This document shows positions 6,951 through 15,070 of a stretch of DNA of 64,000 nucleotides, in pieces. The notes beneath the pieces were generated by a model. That model ran no database searches and had not been told where the DNA came from. It saw only the letters and a program-made list of their open reading frames with translations. The position numbers and the translations under genes were made by a program. The stretch is taken from positions 1 to 64,000 of the forward strand of contig JACRIM010000026.1 of NCBI GenBank assembly GCA_016235815.1. Direction: 5' to 3'. Numbering within the stretch: position 1 is the first letter of the stretch; each line of letters starts with the position of its first letter. Source of the stretch: Planctomycetota bacterium (GTDB lineage Bacteria; Planctomycetota; Phycisphaerae; UBA1845; UTPLA1).

Positions 6951-7787
6951 ATGACATCTCTTAATCGCCGTTTGTGCCTTTCGGTCGCACTGTTGACCGC
7001 GGCCAGCCTTGCATCGTGGAACGCCGTCACCGCGCAGCCGAGCCTCGGCGGCGCGAAGAAGAAGGCGAACGAAAGCAAGGAAGATCAAAACAAGAAGAAT
7101 GATCCGGCGGCCAAGCCGAAGGATCCAATCGTCTTCGGCATGGGGCCCGATGAGAAGGCGCACTTCGAGATTGACGCCAAGAGCAAGCGCAACGTCATCA
7201 AGTTCGAGTCGAAGGCTCCCAAGGAGACCATCGAAGGCAAGGTCACGAAGATCGAAGGCTCGCTCGACTTCAACCCGCGCAAGATGGACGCCATCGAGGG
7301 CAAGTTCACCATCGACTGGAAAGACGTCGACACCGGCAACAAGATGCGCAACGAGCACATGATGAGCGCTCCGTGGGTCGATGCGAAGAGTCACCCGCAG
7401 ATTGTCTTTACCGTTACCGGCATTGAGAATCTCTCGGCCAAGGACAAGCCGATCAAGAGCATCAAGGCTGATCTCGTCGGCAAGATGGCCATCAACGGCA
7501 AAGAGAAGGAAATGAAGATTCCGGTCACGCTGGCCTATCTCGAAACGGCCGGCACGCCGAAGAAGGGCGAGGCGCCGCACGAAGGGCTTGGCATTCGTGC
7601 CGGAAAATTCAAGATCGCGCTCGCTGATTTCGACATCAAGGGTAAGGGAGTGGGCGACAAGGTCGCTGCTGAACTCGACTTCTCCACCGCCTCGATGATG
7701 CTCATCGGCCCTGAGCACAAGGAAGAAAAGAAGGCGGTTGCCCCCAAGACCCCGATGAAGAAGCCGCCGCCACCCAAGGGCGCTTAA
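6951..7787 (+). CDS. YceI-family secreted protein
   Basis: The 278-residue product starts with a Sec signal peptide (hydrophobic about residues 8-25, cut near VTA-QP). A lysine-rich linker of about 35 residues precedes a YceI-like lipocalin-type beta-barrel (about residues 60-255). Family signs are KFESKAP, the GSLDFNPRKMD strand pair, NEHMMSAPWVDAKSHPQI (the family H..S..F.D....P.I pattern) and the terminal AELDFSTASMML. YceI proteins bind amphiphilic isoprenoids or amides in the periplasm; the ligand here is unknown. The C-terminal tail is rich in lysine and proline. The start has AAGGA upstream, and a terminator follows. Confidence 0.85.
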   Translation: MTSLNRRLCLSVALLTAASLASWNAVTAQPSLGGAKKKANESKEDQNKKNDPAAKPKDPIVFGMGPDEKAHFEIDAKSKRNVIKFESKAPKETIEGKVTKIEGSLDFNPRKMDAIEGKFTIDWKDVDTGNKMRNEHMMSAPWVDAKSHPQIVFTVTGIENLSAKDKPIKSIKADLVGKMAINGKEKEMKIPVTLAYLETAGTPKKGEAPHEGLGIRAGKFKIALADFDIKGKGVGDKVAAELDFSTASMMLIGPEHKEEKKAVAPKTPMKKPPPPKGA

Positions 7788-7821
7788 TCGCTCGCTTTCG
7801 ACTCAAATTGTGAAACACGCC

Positions 7822-7855
7822 AAAGCCCCGGGCACGAACTGTCCGGGGCTTTATA
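7822..7855 (+). terminator. rho-independent terminator after the YceI gene
   Basis: A perfect 10-bp stem, AAAGCCCCGG with CCGGGGCTTT, closes an 11-base loop 35 bases after the YceI stop codon. The T-run is short (TTTATAATT), but the stem is strong. It should end the lat-to-YceI transcription unit. Confidence 0.8.
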
Positions 7856-7899
7856 ATTGGCACAACGATTAACCCGTGAACTCCAACCGCGAGGACGCC

Positions 7900-9423
7900 A
7901 TGAACGACGTTCTGAAGAAACTCGGCATCGAACCTGTCAACCCCGGGGCCTTCAATGGTCGCTGGTTCGGCTCGGACTCAAAACTCGAATCCATCTCGCC
8001 CATCGACGGCAAACCGATCGCCGCCGTCATGCAGGCCACGCCCGCTGAATACGAGCAGGTCCTGGCCGCCGGCGTGAAGGCGTTTGAAACATGGCGGACC
8101 ACGCCTGCGCCGAAGCGCGGCGAACTTGTCCGCCAGCTCGGCAATGCGCTGCGAGAGTTGAAGGCTGAGCTTGGCGCGCTTGTCACCATGGAGATGGGCA
8201 AGATTCGCGCCGAGGGAGAAGGCGAAGTGCAGGAGATGATCGACATCTGCGACTTTGCGTGCGGCCTTTCGCGACAACTGTACGGACTCTCGATGCATTC
8301 CGAGCGCCCCGGCCATCGCATGTACGAGCAGTGGCATCCGCTTGGCGTCGTCGGCATCATCAGCGCGTTCAACTTTCCGGTGGCCGTCTGGGCGTGGAAC
8401 TCGGCGCTGGCCGCGGTCTGTGGCGATGTGTCGTTGTGGAAGCCGTCGAGCAAGACGCCTCTGACCGCTGTGGCCGTCACGAAGATCGCCGAGCGCGTCT
8501 GCCGGGATTTCGGCGTTGACCCGGCGATTTTCAGCCTGATCATCGGCAAGGGTTCGACCATCGGCGAGATGCTGATCAACGACCGGCGCATTCCGCTGGT
8601 ATCGGCCACAGGTTCGTGCCGCATGGGCTATCGCATCGGCGAGGTTGTCGGCAAGCGGCTGGGGCGGACGATTCTGGAGCTGGGCGGAAACAATGCCATC
8701 ATTGTGACACCCGAGGCCGACCTTGACCTCGCTGTGCGGGCGATTGTCTTTGGCTCCGTGGGCACGGCCGGCCAGCGTTGCACGAGCACGCGGCGCATCA
8801 TCGTGCATGAGAGCATTAAGAAGACGCTGACGGATCGCCTTATCGCGGCTTACAAGCAGGTGAAGATCGGCAACCCGCTGAGCGAAGGGACGCTCATGGG
8901 GCCGCTCATCGACACCGGCGCGGTCAACGACATGATGAACGCGCTCAAGAAGCTCAAGGAAGAGGGGGGGCAAATCCTCTGCGGCGGCGATGTGCTGTCG
9001 GGCGATGCCTATGCGGGCGGCTGTTATGTCTCGCCGGTCATCGCGTTCGCGGAGAACGAGTACAAGATCGTGCAGGAGGAAACTTTCGCGCCGATTCTTT
9101 ATGTCATTGGATACAAGACGCTGAACGACGCCATTGCGAAGCACAACGGCGTGCCGCAGGGCCTCTCGGGCGCGATCTTCACGCGAAACCTGCTGGAGGC
9201 TGAGCAGTTCCTCTCGGCGGCGGGCAGCGACTGCGGCATTGCCAACGTGAACATCGGCACCAGCGGCGCCGAGATCGGCGGGGCCTTCGGCGGCGAAAAG
9301 GAAACGGGCGGCGGCCGCGAGAGCGGCTCCGACAGTTGGAAGGCCTACATGCGCCGGCAGACGAACACGATCAACTACACGACGCAGTTGCCGCTGGCGC
9401 AGGGGATTAAGTTCGGGGATTAG
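7900..9423 (+). CDS. ALDH7-type 2-aminoadipate-semialdehyde dehydrogenase
   Basis: A 507-residue NAD(P)+ aldehyde dehydrogenase of the antiquitin (ALDH7A1/AmaB) type. It should oxidise 2-aminoadipate 6-semialdehyde, the product of Lat, to 2-aminoadipate. Seen directly: FNFPVAVWAWN, the general-base glutamate in LELGGNN (Glu260), the catalytic cysteine in GTAGQRCTSTRR (Cys294), and the ALDH7 C-terminal signature GGEKETGGGRESGSDSWK. The ATG at 7900 has GAGGA upstream; a GTG at 7876 would add eight residues. The last 21 or so bases of coding sequence (9387-9407) recur at 12519-12539, beyond the modification/nuclease operon. Confidence 0.92.
   Translation: MNDVLKKLGIEPVNPGAFNGRWFGSDSKLESISPIDGKPIAAVMQATPAEYEQVLAAGVKAFETWRTTPAPKRGELVRQLGNALRELKAELGALVTMEMGKIRAEGEGEVQEMIDICDFACGLSRQLYGLSMHSERPGHRMYEQWHPLGVVGIISAFNFPVAVWAWNSALAAVCGDVSLWKPSSKTPLTAVAVTKIAERVCRDFGVDPAIFSLIIGKGSTIGEMLINDRRIPLVSATGSCRMGYRIGEVVGKRLGRTILELGGNNAIIVTPEADLDLAVRAIVFGSVGTAGQRCTSTRRIIVHESIKKTLTDRLIAAYKQVKIGNPLSEGTLMGPLIDTGAVNDMMNALKKLKEEGGQILCGGDVLSGDAYAGGCYVSPVIAFAENEYKIVQEETFAPILYVIGYKTLNDAIAKHNGVPQGLSGAIFTRNLLEAEQFLSAAGSDCGIANVNIGTSGAEIGGAFGGEKETGGGRESGSDSWKAYMRRQTNTINYTTQLPLAQGIKFGD
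9387..9407 (+). repeat. 21-bp direct repeat, copy 1 (ALDH 3' end)
   Basis: This stretch encodes the LPLAQGI tail of the ALDH. A perfect copy lies at 12519-12539. The interval between the copies is exactly the modification/nuclease operon, so the pair looks like the ends of an inserted segment. Confidence 0.75.
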
Positions 9424-9512: not shown

Positions 9513-11324
9513 ATGGAAACACAGTTAGGTCGCATTCACAACGTCGATTGCGTCAAAGGGCTCTATTCTCTTCCGGCCGGATCAATCGACCTGGTTTTTG
9601 CCGACCCCCCGTTCAATATTGGCTACGACTATGACGTTTATGATGATCGCCGCAGCGTATGCGATTATTTGACATGGTCAAAACAATGGATCGAGGGTGT
9701 TCGGCACGCGTTAAAGGCCACGGGCACTTTCTGGCTGGCTATCGGCGACGAGTACGCGGCGGAGCTAAAAGTACTCTGCACGGGCGACTTAGGTTTCCAT
9801 TGTCGAAGCTGGGTGATCTGGTTTTACACCTTCGGCGTGCACTGCAACCAGAAATTCACCCGCAGCCACGCGCACTTGTTTCAATTCGTGAAAGACCCCC
9901 GGCGATTTACGTTTAATGCCTCTGAGATTCGCGTTCCCTCTGCCCGGCAACTGGTGTATGGGGACAAGCGGGCGGCTGCCGGAGGCCGAATGCCGGACGA
10001 CACATGGATGGTGCCAGCCGAATTGCCCAAGGACACGCCCCTGGCCAACGGATTCGTATTACGCCCGCAAGACATTCCCGATCGCTTCCCTCCTCATAGC
10101 GACACATGGTATTTCGCCCGAGTTGCCGGAACGTTTGCCGAGCGGCGCGGGTGGCATGGTTGCCAAATGCCGGAACAGCTCCTCGGGCGAATCATTCGAG
10201 CAAGCTCCAATGAAGGAGATGTGGTCTTGGATCCGTTCGGAGGAAGCGGCACGACTCTTGCTGTGGCAAAAAAACTTGGGCGCCGCTTCGTCGGGTTCGA
10301 GTTGTCGAAGAGCTACGCAATAAAAATTGAGGAGAGGCTCGCAGCGACGAACATCGGCGATCCACTTGTCGGCCCGGAAAATCCAGAATTGAGTTCTCCA
10401 ACAACAAAGTCCGGGCGGCGGTTGGTTACATCTCAACAGAAGTCGGCTTCGATTGAGAAATGGAATGTCTCTGACAGACTCATTTGCAGTGCTCCGGCCG
10501 CCCACGAAAAAGTAACCTGTGGGCAAGCGGCCGTTCCGAGCCGTGAATTGAGTACCGCAATTGCCGAGGCTTTTATCGCCTCTCACGATGGCTACTCTGC
10601 AGATCGCGTAGTTGCTGACCCGGAACTAAACGAGAGGTTTCTCGCAATTTGCACGAAGCGCGGGATACCGGGTGATGTTGCCGAATGGAATCGGGCGCTG
10701 CTTAATTTACGGAAGAAGGGCGCTCTTGCCGCCATTGATACCTCACGACGAACTTGCATGCGTGTGGCAGAGATGGATTCCTTTGTCTATGCAAGTGAAG
10801 TTGCATGGAAAACCGTTGAGAACTTGAAGGGGAGTTCGCTAGACGAGATCATTTGCGACCCTGAGCTCTCGGCGCTATTTGACAAGATCGCTCGTCGAAT
10901 ATCGCCGAACCGTTCTGTGTTTGAATATCGATGGGCCGCTTTGGCGGTTCGCAAGATGGTGGCGAAAGGCGACCGAATTCGCGGTCGTGTCGGGAGCCGA
11001 CTTTCCCGAATGACCCCCCTCGGCGCAAATGCGATTCTGCCTTCGGCGCAAGCGCACTACGTGTTATCGCATGATGACCAGCCGCTATTTGTCGGCTTGG
11101 CCGCGAATCTTCGACTTTGCACTTTTCTAGACCCATTACGAGTAGAAGCGGCGGCATCAGAACTCGGGGTTAAGAACTTTTCGTCGAGGCACGTACGACT
11201 CGCGTATCAGATACTCAATCCACTGGGCTTCAAGCGTACTGAGTTTGCTGCTGCGCGCAGGTTTGGACTGGTGGAAAGGCTTCACCCAATTGGAAATATC
11301 AAGCGACCGGAAAAGGTCGCTTAA
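9513..11324 (+). CDS. DNA methyltransferase (DPPF type) with long C-terminal extension
   Basis: Residues 1-285 form a beta-class amino-methyltransferase: the catalytic motif [11 protein letters not shown] is at 31-41 and the AdoMet motif [11 protein letters not shown] at 240-250, in the order typical of type II N6-adenine or N4-cytosine enzymes. It should methylate DNA at a specific site using AdoMet. Residues 286-345 are a linker. Residues 347-482 match, almost without gaps, residues 12-142 of the next gene product (DRVVAD.ELN, NR.LLN.RK, YRWAAL..RK). Residues 514-539 (HYVL...[12 protein letters not shown]) line up with the core of that protein's GIY-YIG domain but lack the downstream catalytic glutamate, so it looks like a decayed nuclease domain. 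Codons end in A or T more often than in the neighbours, consistent with transfer. Confidence 0.85.
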
Positions 11325-11332
11325 ACAGGGCC

Positions 11333-12112
11333 ATGATCCCGAGAATTACCTCACAGGACCGGGAGTTGATCCGCCGAGCATTTCTTGCTGTTCGCAATAA
11401 TTGGCCCCCGGATCGTGTTGTCGCCGATTCGGAGTTAAACGCCGCCTTTCTCGTCGAATGCGAACGCCTGGGGGTTTCGGCACCCGATCGAGAGCGAAAT
11501 CGCGTGCTCCTCAATATCCGCAAAGCCGGTCTTCTTCAGGGGATCAAATCGCAGCGAACCACTTTCGCGAACCAGGACCAATATCAGTTTGCGGCCGAAA
11601 TCGCTGTCCGGCTTTTGGAACGACGGGATGGCGTGACGCTGGACGACATACTCTGTGATCCAAAACGGGTCGCGGAATTTGATCGCCTGGCCCAGGAAAT
11701 CGCGCCCGGCTTTTCACCGCTTCAATATCGCTGGGCCGCGCTTTCAATCAGAAAAAGTAGTGGGCTGAAACCCGAGCCCGCTTCACGAACTGTCCCCGCA
11801 ATTGAGGTGCGCCGCTTTGCCACGGCCGGTATCAACATTCGTGAATTGCCTGACGAAAATGGTGTTTACTTATTTCAGACAACGACGAAGTTATTGTATG
11901 TGGGCGAAGCCGCCAACCTTCGAGTCCGCTTAAGTGTTCACCTCGATCATTCTGACAATCGGCAATTGGCTCGGTGGATATGGGAAAATGAGAACGAGCC
12001 ACTATTCATCGAGTGCCATGTACTGCCTGCAGGCACTTCGAAGCGGACGCGCAGGGCGGTTGAGCTTGAATTCATCAGATCGCGGAAACCCGAATTTAAC
12101 ATCCAACGATAG
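11333..12112 (+). CDS. GIY-YIG endonuclease sharing the methyltransferase's accessory domain
   Basis: The 259-residue protein starts eight bases after the methyltransferase stop. Residues 12-142 are the domain shared with the methyltransferase. Residues 176-259 are a GIY-YIG nuclease: GVY (177-179) and YVG (189-191) form the two strands, EAANLRVRL supplies the conserved arginine, Glu244 in AVELEFI aligns with the metal-binding glutamate of UvrC-type domains, and PEFN closes the fold. With the methyltransferase this suggests a restriction-modification pair in which the shared domain gives both enzymes the same DNA specificity; that is inference. GIY-YIG restriction enzymes such as Eco29kI and Hpy188I are known, but I do not know this domain arrangement. 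A repair or homing nuclease is the alternative. Confidence 0.8.
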   Translation: MIPRITSQDRELIRRAFLAVRNNWPPDRVVADSELNAAFLVECERLGVSAPDRERNRVLLNIRKAGLLQGIKSQRTTFANQDQYQFAAEIAVRLLERRDGVTLDDILCDPKRVAEFDRLAQEIAPGFSPLQYRWAALSIRKSSGLKPEPASRTVPAIEVRRFATAGINIRELPDENGVYLFQTTTKLLYVGEAANLRVRLSVHLDHSDNRQLARWIWENENEPLFIECHVLPAGTSKRTRRAVELEFIRSRKPEFNIQR

Positions 12113-12124
12113 CAGGTGCAAAAC

Positions 12125-12469
12125 ATGTCCCCGCTCGACAAAGCTATTGCTTTCTGCGGTTCTTTTGAGGCCGAGTTGTTAGTCGAATTGATGATGCGAC
12201 ATTGGGCGCATCCAAACTGCGACGACCGTGAAGTGCGTGATCAGCTTGTGGAGGGAGCGGCCGAAGTACTTCAACGATCTAAACTGGGGGAACAACTTGT
12301 TGAAGGTTTGGCGCCTGGCGATATGAACTTTGTCGCGGCCGTATGGTGTTTTGAGCATTCACAGATAGTGGATTCGCTCGCCGAGAGTGTGGGTGAGCGC
12401 CGAGATTGGTTGTCGAAAATTCGCAGGGCGATTCCATCGTGCTTTTGTGACCCACACGACTTGGCATAG
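12125..12469 (+). CDS. third gene of the modification/nuclease operon, unknown
   Basis: It begins 12 bases after the nuclease stop (ATG at 12125 with AGG upstream) and encodes 114 residues, acidic and mostly helical, with several cysteines (for example CFEHSQ and CFCDP near the C-terminus) and a tryptophan-rich middle. There is no signal peptide and no membrane segment. I recognise no family. Its place inside the direct-repeat-bounded segment, in the same operon, suggests an accessory role, for instance a controller, inhibitor or stabiliser of the nuclease. It does not look like a helix-turn-helix C protein. Confidence 0.6.
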   Translation: MSPLDKAIAFCGSFEAELLVELMMRHWAHPNCDDREVRDQLVEGAAEVLQRSKLGEQLVEGLAPGDMNFVAAVWCFEHSQIVDSLAESVGERRDWLSKIRRAIPSCFCDPHDLA

Positions 12470-12518
12470 CCATTGTGATTCTCGCGGCCTCTTCCCTCGT
12501 GTTTGGGCAAGCGGTGCG

Positions 12519-12539
12519 GTTGCCGCTGGCGCAGGGGAT
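12519..12539 (+). repeat. 21-bp direct repeat, copy 2
   Basis: Perfect copy of 9387-9407. In the frame matching the ALDH it again reads LPLAQGI, but there is no ALDH similarity upstream of it, and after it the sequence diverges at once. It marks the right end of the inserted segment. Confidence 0.75.
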
Positions 12540-12611
12540 CAATTGGACCTTTGTTGCTTGCCTCGCTCGGATTGTAAGCGCGTGCCATAATGAACCATTT
12601 GGAGCATTGGC

Positions 12612-14452: not shown

Positions 14453-15070
14453 ATGGCGCGGAAGGACCAAGTTGAGCGCGAACAACGCGGCCTCACACAT
14501 TCGCGTGTGATTTTCGCGCATCATTTGATTCTGCACGGGTACGGGCATTGGCTGCCTAATGACTCACGGGGCAGCGGTTCCACCGAAGTGCGCGAAGAAA
14601 AGTTGGTTGCGCTGGGCGACGTTCATCACGGTCGTCGCCGCGTGCAGCCCTCGCGTGAGACGTTAAAGGGGTTCTACCGCAAGGCGGAACCGCTTCTCGA
14701 ACACGCCCCTATTTGGTTTGATGACGCGAAGAGGCAAGCCCTTGGCGGCGCATTTGGCGAAACAATCCGGCAAGAACGGTACACGGTGTGGGTGTGCGTG
14801 ATTCTCAGGAATCACGCGCATTTTTGTATCCGGCGTCACCGTGACAATGCGACCATTATGTGGCGCAGACTCGCGGAGGAGTCGTCACGCGTGCTTCGCC
14901 TCTTCGCGGGGGTTGGCGCGGGGCACCCGGTCTGGTCCAAACGTCCATACAAGGTCTTCCTATACGATCGAGGAGATGTTGCCCGCGTAATCGATTACAT
15001 CGAAAACAACCCGGTCAAAGAAGGGCTTTCGAAGCAGGAGTGGCTATTCGTGACTCGTTTGGGTTTATGA
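14453..15070 (+). CDS. RAYT-like (Y1/IS200-type) transposase
   Basis: The 205-residue protein has the Y1-transposase layout of REP-associated tyrosine transposases. The N-terminal strand reads HLILHGYGHWLPNDSRGS, the HUH-type metal motif appears as NHAHFCIR (about residue 122), and the C-terminal YIENNPVKEGL contains the candidate catalytic tyrosine. Such enzymes cut single-stranded DNA next to REP palindromes. No IS ends are seen around the gene, so it is probably a domesticated single-copy RAYT. It could be responsible for the palindromic repeats in this window; that is inference. The start has AGGAG at a good spacing. Confidence 0.75.
   Translation: MARKDQVEREQRGLTHSRVIFAHHLILHGYGHWLPNDSRGSGSTEVREEKLVALGDVHHGRRRVQPSRETLKGFYRKAEPLLEHAPIWFDDAKRQALGGAFGETIRQERYTVWVCVILRNHAHFCIRRHRDNATIMWRRLAEESSRVLRLFAGVGAGHPVWSKRPYKVFLYDRGDVARVIDYIENNPVKEGLSKQEWLFVTRLGL

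Follow-up and report, generated by a model that had tools for sequence, protein, structure and literature searches.

A Planctomycetota restriction-modification-like island in which a predicted adenine methyltransferase carries a degenerate copy of its neighbouring GIY-YIG nuclease

The methylase and the restriction enzyme of a Type II system have, as a rule, no recognition part in common, and how the two came to recognise the same site is an old question. Here we compare with described systems a locus in a 64,000-nucleotide stretch of Planctomycetota DNA (the window). Among these systems, Eco29kI and Cfr42I likewise consist of separate genes for a methylase and a GIY-YIG nuclease. The residues Y49, Y76, R104, H108, E142 and N154 of Eco29kI (PMC1952068) recur as the same set in the window nuclease, with the same spacings from Arg to His (+4) and from Glu to Asn (+12). 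However, the structure match to Eco29kI spans residues 146-258 of the nuclease model only, so that the tandem helix-turn-helix (HTH)-like N-domain (residues 1-145) lies outside it, and no nuclease copy has been reported in the Eco29kI methylase. The described fusion of the Eco29kI restriction and modification enzymes is an engineered, active one (PMC3039593).

Type IIG/IIC enzymes, such as BpuSI and MmeI, combine methyltransferase (MTase) and nuclease domains in one chain, with one recognition part for both activities (PMC4081073). The window system differs in that its fused nuclease is apparently dead, the active nuclease is predicted from a separate gene, and the MTase belongs to the beta rather than the gamma class; with the catalytic residue missing from the fused nuclease, and the active enzyme encoded by a gene of its own, we do not regard the system as Type IIG. 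Furthermore, the DnmA-YeeB-YeeC operon of Bacillus subtilis brings together an adenine methylase and a GIY-YIG-family gene (PMC9973331), but its MTase is of another class, a helicase lies between the two, and no GIY-YIG duplication in the MTase has been reported. BREX-type helicases keep an inactive restriction endonuclease domain for sensing or binding (PMC12839542). That domain, however, has the PD-(D/E)XK fold and sits on a helicase, whereas in the window it is a methylase that carries the dead domain, a GIY-YIG paralogue of the nuclease from the same system. An earlier note on this DNA knew of no type II system of such a kind, and our limited keyword search of the open-access literature (subscription papers and REBASE lay outside it) likewise found no described system with this layout.

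Layout of the three-gene island

The MTase and nuclease open reading frames (ORFs) lie where the earlier note had placed them, both intact and both on the forward strand (Table 1), and the three blocks by which it had aligned their products (DRVVAD.ELN, NR.LLN.RK and YRWAAL..RK) are present. As both ORFs are intact and the same layout is found in many genomes, a frameshift or assembly artefact was ruled out. None of the ORFs of the three-gene island looks like a helicase or an ATPase.

Table 1 Features of the island and of the proteins that it encodes (window positions)
Feature	Position	Strand	Details
Left copy of 27-nt direct repeat, in 3' end of aldehyde dehydrogenase gene	9384..9410	+	
Beta-class N6-adenine DNA MTase (predicted), C-terminal tandem-HTH and pseudo-GIY-YIG module	9513..11324	+	603 aa
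Catalytic MTase domain, residues about 1-290, DPPF motif before DPFGGSGTT motif	9513..10382	+	Pfam N6_N4_Mtase E=1.5e-49; model structure matches MboIIA Z 26.7, CcrM Z 26.2
Tandem HTH-like N-domain copy within MTase, residues 344-493	10542..10991	+	BLASTP, predicted structure
Degenerate GIY-YIG domain within MTase, residues about 506-598; Arg583 at catalytic Glu position	11028..11306	+	Profiles, predicted structure
Putative GIY-YIG restriction endonuclease, nuclease of the pair	11333..12112	+	259 aa
Tandem HTH-like N-domain of nuclease, residues 7-145; homologous units 7-64 and 85-142	11351..11767	+	
GIY-YIG catalytic domain of nuclease, residues 158-256; Tyr179, Tyr189, Arg199, His203, Glu244, Asn256	11804..12100	+	
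Third operon gene, no known family	12116..12469	+	117 aa; homologues at 13 other loci
Right copy of 27-nt direct repeat, beyond the three genes	12516..12542	+	25/27

The direct repeat, 25 of whose 27 positions are identical in the two copies, brackets the MTase, the nuclease and the 117-aa gene, and is probably the target duplication of an insertion at the 3' end of the aldehyde dehydrogenase gene. The GC content of the three island genes is 53-56%, against about 57-69% around them. In one relative of the same family (G008) the island is absent and the two flanking genes are adjacent, leaving an empty site. Another relative of this family (G010) has, at the same chromosomal site, an MTase (locus L172, contig C269, 5492-6634) that is 68% identical but ends at about residue 348, without the module. 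This locus looks like a decayed system, since the nuclease and the third gene have been lost as well.

Homologues of the 117-aa gene were found at other system loci (L049, L090, L131, L142, L147-L149, L152, L155-L158 and L160), mostly after the nuclease and otherwise after the MTase, and its product gave no Pfam, NCBIfam or PADLOC match. About 2 kb past the island, an IS200-type (REP-associated) transposase-like ORF occupies window positions 14453-15070.

Residues 1-290 of the MTase match PF01555 and, in structure, MboIIA and CcrM (Table 1). The DPPF/Y motif lies N-terminal to the AdoMet motif FxGxG and the fold is that of the beta class, so the window domain belongs among the beta-class N6-adenine methylases (PF01555) with CcrM, YhdJ and MboIIA, and the class given in the earlier note was borne out. 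To our knowledge, none of these three enzymes carries a tandem-HTH and GIY-YIG module. The best NCBIfam match, PRK11524, falls below the family cut-off; family and motif predict N6-adenine methylation.

Homology of the MTase C-terminus to the nuclease

BLASTP between the two proteins aligned MTase residues 350-535 with nuclease residues 13-198 at 39% identity (120 bits, E=2e-35), which rules out chance similarity and upholds the homology that the earlier note had read by eye. With the nuclease as query against the whole genome, the MTase segment was recovered at E=4.6e-33, together with a third copy on another contig (E=5.3e-18). The BLASTP alignment extends into the GIY-YIG domain of the nuclease (LLYVGEAANLR against [11 protein letters not shown]). 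As the similarity continues into this domain, the whole nuclease has a counterpart in the MTase. A profile built from the last part of 47 fused MTases (pseudo-GIY-YIG) matched the nuclease GIY-YIG domain with 99% probability in hhalign (E=7.7e-18) and that of UvrC at E=1.9e-10, and 20 of the 47 sequences had a Pfam GIY-YIG match when taken singly. The window's own pseudo-GIY-YIG, which is among the most decayed copies, had no Pfam match when searched singly. We read the MTase as a beta-class N6-adenine methylase to which a complete, apparently dead copy of the nuclease is fused. The single recogniser domain that the earlier note had proposed for both enzymes is therefore half right: the segments are homologous and have an HTH-like fold, with DNA binding plausible, but the shared part is the whole nuclease, and its catalytic domain is dead in the MTase. 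Across profile searches, structure prediction and the locus survey, the two segments neither fell into unrelated folds nor occurred only with unrelated partners.

The AF2 model of the nuclease (pLDDT 93, pTM 0.90) comprises two four-helix units and the GIY-YIG domain (158-251 in the model). The units are themselves homologous: hhalign aligned one with the other at 97%, with a score of 54.5, and none of 30 column shuffles scored above 15.3. The best structure matches of each were the HTH DNA binders TnsB, Nur, DUX4 and PAX6 at Z 4.9-5.8, all under 8, a level where common arrangements also turn up; a relationship to HTH DNA-binding units is suggestive, and such a fold makes DNA binding by the shared segment plausible. 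In the MTase model, whose pLDDT is 77.6 and rises over the module, the same helices are predicted at 344-493, with a beta-beta-alpha-beta-alpha arrangement at 514-590. The structure search with the whole MTase was filled by MTase matches, and its C-terminal part was assessed by profile searches.

The GIY-YIG part of the nuclease matched UvrC at Z 9.5 and Eco29kI at Z 6.9 in the structure search, and its Tyr, Tyr, Arg, His, Glu and Asn (Table 1) are invariant in 19 MTase-adjacent nucleases. Fold and conserved residues place the window nuclease in the GIY-YIG superfamily, where the earlier note had put it, and with the full Eco29kI residue set. The catalytic Glu was present in all 16 active copies and in 0 of 42 MTase-fused copies, in which it was replaced by Gln (29 copies), Lys (5), Arg (3, the residue also seen in the window) or others. 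The position of Tyr179 is Tyr or Phe in all 42 fused copies, Gly191 and Asn256 are each kept in 41, and the active-site His is kept in 6. With Glu lost and Tyr, Gly and Asn mostly kept, the catalytic residue is gone and the fold is retained. Judged by this Glu, the MTase C-terminus is not an active nuclease, while its fold relation to GIY-YIG holds; an active Type IIG fusion was ruled out, as the Glu is absent from every fused copy tested. In Eco29kI, the substitution E142A abolished cleavage and left DNA binding robust (Kd 45 against 16 nM, PMC1952068), and E142Q is the variant in one crystal structure of the enzyme (3mx4).

Proposed role of the module and inheritance of the pair

We propose that the island would be a mobile Type II-like restriction-modification operon encoding a methylase, a nuclease and a small third protein. 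In the methylase, the beta-class MTase domain precedes a paralogue of the complete restriction enzyme that has lost the catalytic Glu. This dead copy would be the DNA-targeting part of the methylase, in the manner of the target recognition domain in other MTases; that is, the module may bind DNA and set the specificity of the methylase. Methylase and nuclease would then read DNA with related modules and might use one site, and the nuclease would spare methylated sites, with methylation blocking its action. The reading that we consider probable from sequence and models is that the methylase owes its targeting to the dead module and that both enzymes read the same or closely related sites.

Searches of Planctomycetota genomes, the phylum to which the wide scans were confined and which the following counts cover, yielded 70 fused MTase loci, some of them near-identical. 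A nuclease ORF lies directly downstream at 22 of the 70, the window included, in 8 families, with its start between about -6 and +30 nt relative to the MTase stop. Nineteen of these nucleases are full-length with the Glu, one is cut at a contig end and two are truncated. At 48 of the 70 loci the module is kept and there is no neighbouring nuclease, so that most relatives are solo MTases and homologues do not always pair methyltransferase with nuclease, a point that the earlier note had raised. Pairs, or MTases with a truncated nuclease, account for 15 of 17 loci in the window's class and for few in the family of another genome (G197); in one family, most fused MTases have no nuclease gene nearby.

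Where both are present, MTase and nuclease are co-inherited. The N-domain distances of partners correlate (r=0.73, with 0 of 5000 permutations as high), a correlation that would arise equally from simple joint inheritance. The likeness of N-domain residues within pairs, compared with that between loci, was not significant (permutation p=0.057), nor was GIY-YIG residue matching within pairs (p=0.45). Gene conversion or matched specificity residues are thus unsupported, and because the N-domain residues are not clearly matched in pairs, a common specificity is put forward here as a proposal. The tight co-inheritance of genes that overlap or nearly do so would also suit a dead module that is mainly a protein-protein part, pairing with the active nuclease module in one methylase-nuclease complex (a pseudo-dimer) and controlling cutting or sensing hemimethylated sites. 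Bound to its site, Eco29kI is a homodimer (PMC4081073), and a dead paralogue could therefore serve as the partner. Nevertheless, such a role is unlikely given that the module is kept at the 48 loci without a neighbouring nuclease, and that dead modules occur on or beside other MTase classes with no active nuclease of the same family in view.

Over 20 pairs, N-domain identity was 46% among MTases and 47% among nucleases, whereas GIY-YIG identity was 26% among MTases against 45% among nucleases. The much lower conservation of the GIY-YIG part in MTases, the grouping of fused copies on the module tree and the complete loss of the module in the relative at the same chromosomal site (L172) would fit a drifting remnant of an ancestral single-chain (Type IIG-like) methylase-nuclease, whose cutting was lost after a second nuclease gene arose. 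We regard this as quite unlikely. The N-domain is equally conserved in the two proteins, GIY-YIG fold residues are retained in most of the 42 copies, the module persists over many genera, and the relative has lost its nuclease and third gene too, as a decayed-looking system might.

Other partners and evolutionary history of the module

Dead modules accompany three unrelated adenine-MTase classes (beta, gamma and D12), and active copies accompany cutting. At L163 (1839-6944), a helicase-like ORF precedes a gamma-class Eco57I-type MTase whose gene is split into two ORFs; the module lies at the C-terminus of this MTase, with Arg in place of Glu. At two loci (L116, 1731-2879; L159, 2119-3249), an intact D12-class adenine methylase gene has as its neighbour a gene for a HicB-like RHH domain joined to a dead module. 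Furthermore, standalone dead modules follow a conserved gene of about 139 aa at L004, L020, L143, L164 and L165. The first of these, in the window's own genome (C11, 142345-142821), lies beside a D12 MTase fragment, and the last beside a D12-class MTase gene. The association of dead copies with three MTase classes and of active copies with cutting favours a module that guides enzymes to DNA. We see about even chances that these loci represent a restriction-modification family in which the restriction enzyme of the system has an inactivated paralogue that guides the methylase to its sites, the dead module being portable across three unrelated adenine-MTase classes and active in the restriction enzyme and in secreted nucleases. 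If this is true, one duplicated module would explain same-site recognition, the cutter having been duplicated, killed and fused to the methylase, and the three MTase classes with which the module occurs suggest that it could be reused to send methylases or cutters to new sites.

At L054 and L094-L104, active GIY-YIG nucleases that share the tandem-HTH domain stand alone, with signal-peptide-like N-termini and no MTase of this family beside them, and are probably exported. Such secreted-looking nucleases without an MTase, and the one family with mostly solo fused MTases, would suit a non-cognate pair, with the solo MTase as the main enzyme, in a housekeeping (regulatory) role, and a general or methylation-dependent nuclease downstream that shares a non-specific DNA-binding module, but this is very improbable, as the nuclease is co-inherited in the same place at 22 of 70 loci in 8 families, and a cutter of methylated sites would attack its own host.

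The module tree has a single group for each of four kinds of copy: fused copies (support 82), paired nucleases (82), standalone secreted-looking nucleases (99) and standalone dead modules (100). On the MTase tree, the presence of the nuclease is scattered, with 11 changes by parsimony, at least 4 of them forced by well-supported branches. Most simply, a single old duplication and fusion was followed by nuclease losses on several occasions, though gains may have occurred too. Phage and plasmid collections gave no match in tblastn searches and viral contigs held no relative, and a single-protein scan of genome contigs found one relative. At one of the solo fused MTases (L050), two small TIR-domain-like genes follow directly (7057-8123).
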